DNA from: Glutinoglossum americanum
Lineage: Eukaryota; Ascomycota; Geoglossomycetes; Geoglossales; Geoglossaceae
Length of the DNA stretch: 64,000 nt
NCBI GenBank assembly: GCA_020080175.1
Contig: JAGHQL010000032.1
Coordinates: forward strand, 62,001-126,000
Reading direction: 5' to 3'
Part shown: positions 3,393 through 63,498 of the stretch, piece by piece
How the letters are laid out: every line of letters begins with the position of its first letter
Position numbering within the stretch: position 1 is the stretch's first letter
Made by a program: the position numbers and the translations under genes
The notes under the pieces: model-generated
The model's input: only the letters and a program-made list of their open reading frames with translations
What the model was told of the DNA's origin: nothing
The model's database searches: none

Positions 3393-3517
3393 GGTCGTAT
3401 GGCGCAATTGGTTAGCGCGTGGTAAATACCCCATGTTTCTGCGGCAAATTCATCAACTAATTAGTGTGTTAGGTGCTAATAACGCCAAGGCTGTGGGTTC
3501 GAGTCCCACTATGACCA
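3393..3517 (+). tRNA. tRNA-Ile(AAT) with an insert in the anticodon stem
   Basis: Removing 51 nt leaves a complete cloverleaf. The acceptor stem pairs GGTCGTA (3393-3399) with TATGACC (3510-3516), and A at 3517 is the discriminator base. The D stem is GCGC/GCGC, the T arm is GTGGG-TTCGAGT-CCCAC, and the anticodon arm is TGGTG-CTAATAA-CGCCA with anticodon AAT at 3478-3480. The internal promoters are present: A box at 3400-3411 and B box at 3496-3506, followed by a T run for RNA polymerase III. The insert splits the 5' strand of the anticodon stem, so a standard 37/38 intron does not explain it: the bases after the D stem offer no T33 or anticodon upstream of the insert. It is either a tRNA with an unusual intron or a disrupted copy. 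Confidence 0.82.
3424..3474 (+). other. 51-nt non-canonical insert/intron inside tRNA-Ile
   Basis: It lies between tRNA positions 30 and 31, and its edge is ambiguous by 3 nt because GGT is repeated at both ends (3421-3423 and 3472-3474). Nuclear tRNA introns of fungi normally lie one base 3' of the anticodon. The GGT repeat would fit either slippage in boundary choice or a short target-site duplication around a 48-nt insertion. The insert contains the 10-bp palindrome ACTAATTAGT, part of which resembles the anticodon loop CTAATAA. Confidence 0.7.
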
Positions 3518-3526
3518 CTCTCTCTC

Positions 3527-3535
3527 TTTTTTTTT
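3527..3535 (+). terminator. RNA polymerase III terminator of the tRNA gene
   Basis: A run of nine T on the coding strand begins 10 bases after the tRNA discriminator base, the usual position and form of a Pol III stop. Confidence 0.8.
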
Positions 3536-45000: not shown

Positions 45001-47313
45001 CGCTTCGAGAGTTAGGTCGTCTGGCTTGAAAGATGCTAATCCCGGCGTTTTTGCTTCCTCCACATATTCTGCCATAAAGTCGTGAAACGCCTCGACCATT
45101 GAGAGTTTGTGTGGTGGTGGCTTCGGCGTATCTGAAGCCTTCGGCTGTTTCGTGGTGGCATTTTGGTGGGTTGAGATTTCAGCGGCATCCGGCGATGCTC
45201 CCAGAACAGAATCTGTCGGCGATGCTAGAGAGTCTGCATACTCCTCCAGAGAATCATAATCTTCAAACTCTTCCATATCATGGTAACTGCTGTAGTAGGG
45301 TCCACCCCCATATCCAGTTCCATTTGGCTTCTTATACTTCGAACTCCAGCTTCCATGGCTACTCTTTGCTGAGCTCTTTGTATAAAGGACTCCATCAGAA
45401 AAACCGCCGCTGTTTGGATACTTGGGCGTCACGCCAAGTGGGGCTAAATTATCACTATTGGTCTTCTGTGCATGCCCGAATAGCGACTTCTTCTTCTCTT
45501 GCTTGGACGCTGCGGTGGAGGATTTTGATAAAATGCGATCTTTCAAACCCGCCATTTTCGCAGACATTGATCGAGTTGTCCGCATTGTGTCCAAAGGCTT
45601 GACTAAGTGGTCATCATGGCGGTTATCTCCTGCGTGCTTGCGAATGCGTGAAAGCAATGTCGTAGATTGTGACTGCTTTTGCTTTACCAGAGTGTCCAAA
45701 TCTGATATGAGGTGGGCCTTCGACGTTCCTAATTTGGTCTCCATAAGTTTAAGAGTGCCTTTGAGGCTCTCTTCATTCGCCCAAGTCTCTTTGAAGGTCA
45801 TTTTGGAGTTGTCAAGGATCCTCTTTAGCTCGCAGATCCCGGACATTGTCCGCTTTATGCCCTCCATCTTTTGAACCCAGGCTCCGTAATCCGCTTCTGA
45901 TTCAAGCAAGTCTCTCAACTTTGTTTCGTAGGGTCGGCGCACAGCATCGTAGGGGGGTTGAGGTATTCTGGAAGAAGCTGGACGCTTATCTGGGTTTAGC
46001 TCCCTGTTATAGCCGGCATATTCGCTCTTGCGACGCCTTACAGCATCTTCTTTTTTCCCCTTTAAAACCCATTCATCCAAGGCACCGAGGATAACCAAGA
46101 GGCTTAGGGGGCGAGATGCCTCACAATGCCAAGTCGGGCTTTCCGTTGTAGTGCGCGCTTCGCAATGAGCACCACACTGTAAACAGCTAACCTTTGTACA
46201 AGAACCTTTGCATTTAGCGGTGCCAAACAGATTGAGGTATGAAAGTTCCTTAGTGGCCTCTTCTCCCTTGCTGCCCATATCTGCCACAGTGGGAGCACTT
46301 TCGGAAACCGTTCTAGAGGGTGTGGGCCTAAGTCTACGACCAAAGTTGGCTCTGTTTGGTATTGGCGGGACAGTGTTTTCGGGCGTTTTCGCCATGAAGT
46401 TAGTACCCGTCCACAATCTAATAAGCTCAGCGGCGTTAGAGGCATCAATGGTGAGGTCACCATGACACGTGCGGCAATTGAGGTTCAATCGCTGAGAGGA
46501 GTACCACTGTTGCAACTTAGCCACGCTTGGGGACGGCTCGCAGGGAATGGTAAGGTCGATAACCTCTCTAGGCTTGCTATTAGTGCCGCTACCATGTGCT
46601 AGATCGGCTTTTGTAGATGTAGGGTCGCCTTGTGGTGCCATGGAAGAGCGCGATGCATTTAGGGAAGATCTCCGACGGTTCCCATTCTCCCGTTGCTTTT
46701 CAGTCCCTTTCTCCGCATGTTCCAGGAGTTCCTTAAACATCTTCTCCGTTTCCTCTCTTTTGATGTCTTCCATGCCTGATATTGACCTGAAAAGCTGGAA
46801 ATTGCTTTTCCCGGATGATGGCAAGTCTCCAGACTTCCCTGCGGCAGCCTTCGCTAGCTCAGTCTTTATTGTTTTCTCCTCCTCCGTGTCGCTCGCGTAG
46901 TTCTCGACATCATTCCAGTCACCGGCAGCCCCGTCGTAGATGGAAGCATCATTGAATTCCTCGTCGGAATTATCAAACACATCTAGCTGCGAATCGTCAG
47001 TCATAACGACGTCACTATCGCTGGGATAATTCCCAGCTTCTCGCATTTCTTCTTCCATCAGAGCTCTCGCAAGATCCTCATCTAATGCAAGCTGAGTTTG
47101 CCTCTTGGCTTCGGACTTTGGCGAGAGGGGAGCGGGCTCCTTTAATAGAGGCTTGTCAAGTTGATCTTGCAGCTTTCGGGCAAGAAAAGCATCGCGCTCT
47201 AGATCGCTGAGCTTCGACAGTTTTACTTGTGCTTCCGAGTCGAGACCGTTTACAAGCAGGGAACTCGACGATGCAGATGCTGGGGAGAAGCGTGATGATC
47301 TCTGTCGAACCAT
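42024..47313 (-). CDS. Giant ubiquitin-conjugating enzyme (E2), BIRC6/UBE2O class
   Basis: Ubiquitin E2 with the catalytic domain near the end of a very long chain. Exons on the minus strand: 47313-42633, 42581-42319 and 42260-42024; 1726 residues. The first 1400 residues are mostly disordered (Ser/Pro/Asp-rich, an acidic patch around 95-150), with Cys pairs near residues 275-390 (CRTCHGDL and CLQCGAHC) that look like a zinc-binding segment. The UBC domain begins about residue 1460 (RIMHLTKELATM): GPEGTPYEGGLFEFDVWCPE, FNPNLYPDGKVCLSILGTW with catalytic C1562, and SMILCPKPYYNEPG. These match the BIRC6/UBE2O branch rather than small E2s. The last intron (42318-42261) restores IWK-DVVKEHFTING but has a GA donor. 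If it is not spliced the protein ends early after SPTSFTAT. Confidence 0.88.
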
Positions 47314-61040: not shown

Positions 61041-63498
61041 ATGTCTTCCAATATCAGTTCAAAAGGAAAGGATGTTGTGCAAAATAGGCCTCCCTACCCT
61101 ATCCCAGGCCAGTTGAGTTCACATAGCTTTTCCTTTGGTAAGTGCATCGTAACTCCATAGAAGGCCCCCCAAATGTCTACTGTTCTTCTCAGAGACGAAC
61201 GATGCAATAACACTAACATTCCAACCTCACCAATGCAGATGCTAGCGATCCGATTAGGAATCCATTACCCCCTCCTACAGCTCGCGAAGCCTACCATGGC
61301 CAGGCATCTCAGAGCAACAATGAGATGGAAATTGATGTAACTGACGATGGTGTAAGTGGTTATTTAATGTCCACCCAACTGGAGCCACCATGAAAACATT
61401 TCATTAAATTTCGCCCCAAGGGTTCTTGCGTTATCTAGTTGGGCCGCCATGTATGGTCGTTGTTATAGTTGTGCATTTGCATTCTTTTGTTAGTATAGTT
61501 TATTCATGTTTATTTGGCTCTACCCCTTTATTCCTAAGGAGACTACTAGAGACTTGCTTAAATTCACTCCGTATACCCCTATTTCTTCGCTGGGGATAAC
61601 CCCAGGGCATTCCTCGTGTTTCGGTGAACCACCCTCACATACAGTGGTTCCTGCCAGACTTGATCCTGCAGTTGCCGCACCGATCGGTCATTTTAATTCT
61701 CTCTTTCGGGGCCACTGTGTACTTTCCGTGTTGGTCTGCAAGAGGAGAGTCTAAAGGCTAACATATCAGGTACTATAGATTACATTTGAAAGACCTAAGA
61801 GGACGAGTGAAACCCCCCAAAAGATGATTGAAATACCTACAAAGCGAAATGCATCCGTTCCGCAATCCCTTTATCGACCTCACAAGAGAGCACGAATTCC
61901 AGGTGGTCGTGCTCCCATCCCAAAGCGTGTTACAGCTGAACTCGATTCTGATGACGAGATTATCGTATCGATGAAGAAAGCTGGAAAGTCTTGCACTGAA
62001 ATCGCCAAACGCCTCAGAGATGAGGGGAGAATAAACTACAGAGACAAGACTATAACGTCGCGTTACGTCCGCATCATAAGAGCTCAAGAAACACAGATGG
62101 AGAAAAACGCGGCTCTAGAACAAATAGAGTGGGAGGAAGAAGATGTACGTCCTCCTTTCACTGCTGGTTCGCTCCAAGCTAACGCCAAATATCGGTGTTC
62201 AGTTAGAAGCACTTACTCATGCCGTAGAGGCCGTAGATTACCAAATTCAAGCAGAATTAGATAAGCTTACCAGACGCAAGTGGCAGATGGTGGTCAGTCA
62301 GCTAAGGGATTCGCGCCCAGGGGGCATCTTCTCGCAGGCAGAATGTCAACGTAGATACAGCCAACTAATGAAGGGGGGCGAACTGAATGCCAGCGGTCCG
62401 GAAGTCCAGTCCCATGGCATTCAGGCCAGTGCCCCTCAGGGTAGCGCCCCTCAGGGTAGCGCTTCTGAGGCTAGAGTTCCTGGGGCCAGAGCCTCAAACC
62501 CCAGCGCCCCTCGACCCAGTACTCCCGCTCAACTGGACATCCCCGAGGCCGACCTGGATGAGTCCAATGATGGCCTATCCTTTATACCTGATTCCCACGA
62601 ATCTAGCAATGACACTTTAGAGGGGGGTGATGACAGCGAATACAAAGACGAGGAGTCGCCCAGCGTGGAGAGCAGTGACACCGGATACAACCCCAAGGTT
62701 AGAAGGGGAACAACATTAGGAACTGGCCAAAGTCCTGCCAAGAACGTTGCTAAGCTAACAACACCCAAGGAATCTCCTTCTTGGGCTACACCGCAGAAGA
62801 GCCAGGGAAATGCGACCGGTGACTTCAGCTCCAAGGACCACGATGGGTCTGTGGCCTCGGCTGCTAATACTGAGGGAATTGGCGAGCCCGGTATACCTAC
62901 CAGCAGTGCCATCAGTTCTGGAAATCGTGTCCTCGAAGCAGCAGCTTCTATTGACCTCCCTATTGAACCTACCCTGGCAGTAGCTAGTGGTACTACCATA
63001 GCTAACTATGAAACAACTGAGCGCGGTAACCGCGTCGCCGCAAAAATGCTCGTCTGTGGCCGAGAGATCCCCGAGCCAGCAGCTACAGGTAGGAGACTCA
63101 TTGTCCAAGGCCTCCCAGTCTGGGTCGGAATAGCTGAGCTACAATTCATCTTCCAAGACTTCAGATTGTGGGTTCTCCGCCCTAGTACCTATAAAAGCAT
63201 AAAAGCACCGCGTTGTTATATGACTCCCGCTGACGCTCTTTTTTCACGGTACAGCTGTGGACACGCCAGTTGCGATGAAGAAGATGGATGGTTCGTCGAC
63301 GTAGCCACTGCCAACGATGCCACGCGCGCAGTGGCAACTCTCAACAGGCAGCTCATCATGAACGAGATTATCTCTGTGGTCGTCTACCGTCATCGCGACA
63401 TGCTCGGTTACAGCTTTGGTTGGTGGCCATTGGTCCACCATGCGGATGACTCTGAAGCTTCCCAATCCGGCGCAAACGGGGTTACGGGTAGCGACTGA
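61041..63498 (+). CDS. DUF7626-like helix-turn-helix protein with C-terminal RRM-like domain
   Basis: Probable nuclear nucleic-acid binding protein of unknown function. Exons 61041-61137, 61239-61351, 61779-62144 and 62203-63498 give 623 residues. After a disordered start, residues about 105-165 form a Myb/homeodomain-like unit: DSDDEIIVSMKKAGKSCTEI then AKRLRDEGRINYRDKTITSR, the DUF7626 pattern. A helical LEALTHAVEAVDYQIQAELD region follows with KRKW-like basic residues and an ECQRRYSQL motif. A Ser/Pro/Gly spacer contains short repeats (APQGSAPQGSA). The end (about residues 500-605) looks like an RRM: RLIVQGLPVW as RNP2-like and GWFVDVATANDATRAVATLN as RNP1-like, with a CGHASC insert between. 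The 427-nt second intron is long. The start is the first ATG in frame. Confidence 0.75.

Follow-up and report, generated by a model that had tools for sequence, protein, structure and literature searches.

A probable spliceosomal intron in the anticodon stem of a nuclear tRNA-Ile(AAT) gene of Glutinoglossum americanum, with an unrelated probable intron of the same kind in tRNA-Leu(AAG)

This work concerns a nuclear tRNA-Ile(AAT) gene of the ascomycete Glutinoglossum americanum that is interrupted by 51 nucleotides (nt) in the 5' strand of its anticodon stem. The gene lies in a 64,000-nt stretch of DNA (positions 62,001 to 126,000 of contig JAGHQL010000032.1, assembly GCA_020080175.1), here called the window, which belongs to contig 241 (C241) of a draft genome of 25.8 Mb in 317 contigs, completeness not given; all genome searches described below used this draft. 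The Rfam tRNA family RF00005 matches window positions 3393 to 3517 on the plus strand (125 nt, 48.2 bits, E 3e-7), which is the sole gathering-level match in the window. The features of the locus, in window coordinates, are as follows:

3393 to 3421, plus strand: tRNA-Ile(AAT) exon 1 (tRNA positions 1-28), from the Rfam tRNA match and ARAGORN on the joined exons
3400 to 3411, plus strand: RNA polymerase III (Pol III) A box TGGCGCAATTGG, within exon 1, from the sequence and the general A-box consensus
3421 to 3423, plus strand: GGT repeat, copy 1, from the possible insert placements
3422 to 3472, plus strand: predicted 51-nt spliceosomal-type intron in the GT-AG placement (28/29), from placements, shuffles, and host-intron comparison
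3422 to 3427, plus strand: candidate 5' splice site GTAAAT (GTGAAT in the paralog; differs from host GTRAGY at +5)
3455 to 3461, plus strand: candidate branch site AACTAAT, with the predicted branch A at 3460 and 12 nt from it to the intron end
3470 to 3472, plus strand: candidate 3' splice site TAG
3472 to 3474, plus strand: GGT repeat, copy 2, from the placements
3473 to 3517, plus strand: tRNA-Ile(AAT) exon 2 (positions 29-73), with the anticodon loop CTAATAA, from Rfam and ARAGORN on the joined exons
3496 to 3506, plus strand: Pol III B box GGTTCGAGTCC, from a B-box pattern match at C241:65496-65506
3527 to 3535, plus strand: Pol III terminator, nine T

Plain ARAGORN called no gene in the intact window. 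Once the 51 nt were removed, it returned a 74-nt tRNA-Ile(aat) with every stem paired, in agreement with the Rfam match; the GGT-flanked 51-nt insert described in the original prediction is thereby confirmed. The good A and B boxes and the Pol III terminator named there are likewise present, both boxes being inside exons and the nine T downstream of the gene. Owing to the GGT repeat, the insert has four equivalent placements, namely 27/28, 28/29, 29/30, and 30/31 in tRNA numbering (linear 28-31). As claimed, it thus sits in the 5' side of the anticodon stem, and no permitted placement reaches 37/38, the canonical position for the tRNA splicing endonuclease (TSEN). The junction originally given, 30/31, is one of the four, and GT...AG ends are obtained at 28/29. 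No group I or group II intron core was matched by Rfam in the window, and 51 nt is too short for an intron of either group.

In the 28/29 placement (window 3422-3472), the insert reads GTAAAT...AACTAAT...TTAG. To gauge how often such a pattern arises by chance, a full signal was defined as GTR...CTRAY...YAG with 8-20 nt from branch to AG, in any permitted placement. It occurred in 8 of 20,000 dinucleotide shuffles of the window insert and in 11 of 20,000 shuffles of the paralog insert described below, with a GT...AG placement alone in 340 and 440 of 20,000, respectively. Random inserts at random tRNA positions gave the full signal in 4 of 50,000 cases.

A second tRNA-Ile(AAT) gene is located 13.6 kb away, outside the window (C241:51818-51942). 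Its exons are identical to those of the window copy at 74 of 74 bases, and its insert, also 51 nt long, differs at 13 of 51 positions. The flanks of the two copies are otherwise poorly alike, and both copies are followed by T runs. At the rate of change seen in the insert, an unchanged set of 74 exon bases has a probability of 3.5e-10. Unchanged exons beside a diverged insert look like those of a gene under selection as a single tRNA, from whose RNA the insert would have to be removed; exons decaying at the pace of the insert, as expected of a pseudogene, were not observed. In addition, none of the 13 key signal positions (GT, +4, the seven branch-site bases, and the last three bases) has changed between the copies (P 0.011). 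The A-to-G change at +3 of the paralog is permitted by the R of the consensus.

Full-length matches to the Ile gene number two in the genome, and both carry the insert; no intron-free Ile(AAT) copy was found in the draft. An exact search with the anticodon-arm core gave four matches, two of which are the Ile genes, and allowing up to 3 mismatches gave 63 matches versus 42 for the control. No further Ile(AAT) gene was present among 5 other matches with up to 2 mismatches, inspected by eye, or at the loci of 20 of the 63 matches, examined by script. The genome also has a tRNA-Ile(TAT) gene, whose long intron is compatible with 37/38. At C35:123975-123991, 17 bases agree exactly with the joined anticodon arm. 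A gene copy lacking the intron, or the primer site of a retrotransposon, was considered here and rejected: the match is the end of an eL15 gene, at the stop codon, and is a coincidence of the WRY-stop codons. No direct repeats of at least 30 bases occur in the 9.9 kb around it. In two sequence collections not meant to hold fungi, the joined Ile gene had no match (viral_contigs), nor did the interrupted gene (viral_contigs and genome_contigs).

A scan of all 79 B-box pattern matches brought up a second interrupted gene, a tRNA-Leu at L134:38-181 (G000:C302:36437-36580; Rfam, 41.4 bits). Its 47-nt insert reads GTAATT...GACTAAC...GCAG, has a branch-to-AG distance of 10, and can be placed at 30/31. 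On the uncut gene, ARAGORN calls Ile or Stop. Without the 47 nt, it recognizes a tRNA-Leu(AAG) whose stems are paired and which has a 15-nt intron at linear 38-39; in tRNA numbering this is 37/38, because the Leu D loop has one extra base. Shuffles of the Leu insert yielded the full signal in 3 of 20,000 cases and a GT...AG placement alone in 138 of 20,000. The gene has one DNA match in the genome, and no other tRNA-Leu(AAG) gene came to light. Compared over their interiors, the Ile and Leu inserts resemble each other no more than shuffled sequences do (z 0.7 and 1.3; the Ile pair scores z 5.5). A common origin of the inserts as a mobile intron was rejected on this ground, and the two look like separate gains, as far as insert sequences can tell.

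In both the Ile and Leu genes, exon 2 starts with the first letters of the intron, GT. As such, the anticodon stem can be paired on its 5' side even before splicing, at 5 of 5 positions in Leu and in the Ile paralog and at 4 of 5 in the window copy. This pairing may aid folding and end trimming, or it may be a mere by-product of the insertion site.

As a yardstick, mRNA introns of the host were sought in 65 nonredundant sequences (267 kb, window included) with the pattern GTRAGH...CTRAY...YAG, requiring an open, coding-like frame on both sides and using the reversed branch motif as a control. Coding potential alone had been tried and discarded as too noisy, its 130 picks showing no clear consensus. 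The strict signal gave 23 coding-flanked candidates versus 3 for the control, and a lower coding cut gave 60 versus 17. From the 26 best of these 60, three were dropped (two of 95 nt and one of 111 nt; one of the 95-nt candidates overlaps another), leaving a predicted host set of 23, which was picked by motif and is therefore unable to test the motif itself. Introns in this set measure 46-74 nt (median, 58), with 10-21 nt from branch to AG and the branch sites CTAAC (10 introns), CTAAT (8), CTGAT (4), and CTGAC (1). The Ile inserts (51 nt; branch-to-AG 12) and the Leu insert (47 nt; 10) fall inside both ranges. One further host intron was verified by homology: that of eL15, GTATCG...TACTAAC...TTTAG, where an exon piece matches PDB chain 7r81_P1 at 34 of 34 residues (from a structure that we take to be the Neurospora crassa ribosome). 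The host was read as a fungus of the Pezizomycotina.

Among other small RNA genes, U6 small nuclear RNA (snRNA) has one match (L127:1501-1680; G000:C280:33219-33398), interrupted after ACAGAGAAGAT by a 70-nt intron, GTAAGT...GCTAAC...TAG, with a branch-to-AG distance of 12. Extra length was absent from the single U3 match (274/274) and from 8 matches of 5S rRNA (120-122 bases). About 5.5 kb from the U3 match, on the same contig (C122), a fungal signal recognition particle RNA was noted in L078 (G000:C122:6400-6800; 125 bits, minus strand), where it reaches the end of the stretch.

Given the GT-AG ends, the branch site, the host-like length and spacing, the sparing of the signals in the paralog, and the similar inserts in tRNA-Leu(AAG) and U6, we consider the 51-nt insert to be, with high confidence, a short spliceosomal intron of the U2 type that interrupts a nuclear tRNA-Ile(AAT) gene, with an unrelated intron of the same type in tRNA-Leu(AAG). 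The original prediction, which did not name this option, had offered either a noncanonical intron presenting an unusual substrate to the splicing endonuclease or a tRNA gene broken by a short insertion; neither is favored by these data. A broader model is probable: the tRNA-Ile(AAU) and tRNA-Leu(AAG) genes would have gained spliceosomal introns independently in the 5' strand of the anticodon stem, making the supply of both tRNAs dependent on the spliceosome, with the first bases of each intron rebuilding the 5' stem, such that a precursor could fold in tRNA fashion ahead of splicing. The related inserts of the two Ile copies suggest that this intron is older than the gene duplication. Pol III would read through the insert from the exonic A and B boxes, the spliceosome would remove GT...AG via a lariat at the branch A (window 3460), restoring the anticodon stem, and the precursor ends would be trimmed. 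Pre-tRNA-Leu(AAG), which has introns at 30/31 and 37/38 in one precursor, would need both machines: the spliceosome for the former and a TSEN cut for the latter, the 15-nt intron.

Several points weigh against spliceosomal introns. The 5' splice sites GTAAAT, GTGAAT, and GTAATT fit host GTRAGY at +1 to +4 and +6 and do not have its G at +5. Looser 5' sites separate poorly from the control (GTRADT, 16 versus 7; GTR, 119 versus 73), the coding-flanked GTRAAT candidates (window 8143 and 55196; L121 2013) either measure about 100 nt or share sequence with a better GTRAGY site, and GTAAAT upstream of CTAAT is only mildly enriched (9 seen versus 3.4 expected). The G at +5 is, on the other hand, not obligatory in this host, because the eL15 intron uses GTATCG; the Leu-type site GTAATT also occurs in two coding-flanked mRNA candidates (L021 and L123). 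Moreover, the intron's 5' GT can pair inside the anticodon stem of the precursor, and a draft assembly may be missing an intron-free Ile(AAT) copy. Finally, the splice signal was defined only after the insert had been seen; it nevertheless follows the published fungal consensus, given in PMC5832005 as an RCTRAY branch site at a distance of 6-36 nt.

The best surviving alternative, which we regard as improbable, is a noncanonical endonuclease intron, in which TSEN or a bulge-helix-bulge (BHB)-type activity cuts the anticodon-stem junctions and tRNA ligase joins the exons. TSEN must operate in this fungus, as 29 of the 37 regular nuclear tRNA genes in our partial catalogue fit a single 37/38 intron, and noncanonical tRNA introns are known in Cyanidioschyzon merolae and nucleomorphs (PMC4090602). 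However, GT-AG ends, a branch site, and the sparing of both in the paralog would all be unexpected of such an intron, and no BHB was apparent by eye at the junctions in minimum-energy folds of the two Ile precursors, although no dedicated search was made. It is very unlikely that both Ile copies are instead pseudogenes with a short insertion, the intact Ile(AAT) gene being missing from the assembly. A genome in 317 contigs, with about a dozen expected isotypes unseen in the partial catalogue, leaves some room for this. Against it stand exons without a change in 74 bases next to an insert with 13 changes in 51, the absence of an intron-free copy from the matches found, the intact A and B boxes and T runs, the spared splice signals, and an insert of the same kind in tRNA-Leu(AAG). 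Hardly credible is a canonical 37/38 intron in a tRNA with the anticodon UAC, whose 5' stem and loop the insert would supply: the GGT repeat does let the insert complete a 5' stem (TGGTG in the paralog, TGGTA in the window copy) and ARAGORN called one artificial join tRNA-Val(tac), but position 33 would be A rather than U, the window copy would have an A-C stem mismatch, and the loop CTAATAA of exon 2, fit for Ile, would serve no purpose. Nor did the searches bring up a further Ile(AAT) gene.

The closest parallel to the proposed spliceosomal introns is U6, a Pol III transcript from which the spliceosome removes an intron. Introns of the mRNA type in fungal U6 snRNA were reportedly described by Tani and Ohshima in 1989 and 1991 and by Canzler et al. 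in 2016. As in those cases, a Pol III gene here carries a short GT-AG intron with a branch site, and the U6 of this genome has one as well; in contrast, the interrupted RNA is a tRNA, a class in which TSEN normally takes out the introns, and exon 1 is just 29-31 nt long. Introns of fungal U3 small nucleolar RNA are also canonical GT-AG introns with an RCTRAY branch site, located in a small structured RNA and mostly in its 5' half; PMC5832005 concludes that they belong to the ordinary spliceosomal kind, for which two species provide direct evidence, and names U3 and U6 as the sole small structured RNAs in which introns were known to be frequent. Unlike intron-bearing fungal U3 genes, the U3 match of this genome is without extra length. 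Canonical 37/38 introns share with the present ones a nuclear tRNA host, tRNA-Leu(AAG) itself having one, and differ in position, ends, branch site, and the machine that removes them. The noncanonical eukaryotic introns treated in the tRNA-intron review, those of nucleomorphs and C. merolae, likewise lie away from 37/38, and nucleomorph genes may carry two or more; they differ in that splicing in C. merolae is linked to BHB motifs and that the introns of nucleomorphs measure 3-24 nt (PMC4090602). The word stem "spliceosom" is absent from this review and from the tRNAscan-SE 2.0 paper (PMC8450103). Whereas spliceosomal introns in Pol III RNA genes are known, we could not find a tRNA described as host. 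No report of such introns in nuclear tRNA genes was among the full-text matches listed, a set that lies mostly outside subscription literature and does not prove absence.

To our knowledge, eukaryotic tRNA introns are regarded as the province of TSEN. If the proposed introns are real, U6 and U3 would not be the only very short Pol III transcripts open to the spliceosome, translation capacity would be tied to splicing capacity, and nature would have provided a clean example of a noncoding gene gaining an intron. A precursor with both intron types would further allow the order and compartment of two splicing systems to be addressed on one RNA. Gene finders that look for introns at the anticodon loop overlook or mislabel such genes, as ARAGORN did for the window Ile gene and for Leu, and more of them may for this reason be hidden in existing fungal genomes.

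The nuclear tRNA catalogue comprises 39 tRNA-like genes: 37 of 39 table rows (two without a 5' half were left out) plus L009 and L067. It is partial because the B-box and anticodon patterns give many chance matches relative to controls (one search gave 25 matches versus 30 for the control), and about a dozen isotypes, presumably to be expected, are absent from it; further interrupted tRNA genes could exist in this genome. Two entries are odd and 37 regular. The regular genes are 5 without introns, the 29 that fit a single 37/38 intron, Leu(AAG), which combines the two kinds of intron, and the Ile(AAT) pair. Of the 37/38-compatible genes, 28 were assigned by a script that presumes this position, and so shows fit without locating the intron, and Tyr was assigned by eye. 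A covariance model built from 24 of the host's nuclear tRNAs matches all 8 loci given to it.

The two odd genes, L103:77-202 (C273) and L048:1396-1522 (C39), are tRNA-like, are followed by T runs, and have no U33-anticodon compatible with a 37/38 reading. Their inserts share an identical stretch of about 35 nt, and their tRNA-like arms differ; such conservation, higher in the insert than in the arms, suggests that a small RNA is housed in a tRNA-like frame. A spliceosomal intron was rejected for this pair, no common GT-AG or branch site being seen by eye. L084 (G000:C155:3800-4200) holds a truncated, tRNA-Asp-like 3' half with a T run, the 5' half of which was not found. L030 and L032 (C72:44124-44217 and 45533-45618) form a divergent tRNA-Gly(GCC) pair with the same body and 37/38 introns of unequal length.
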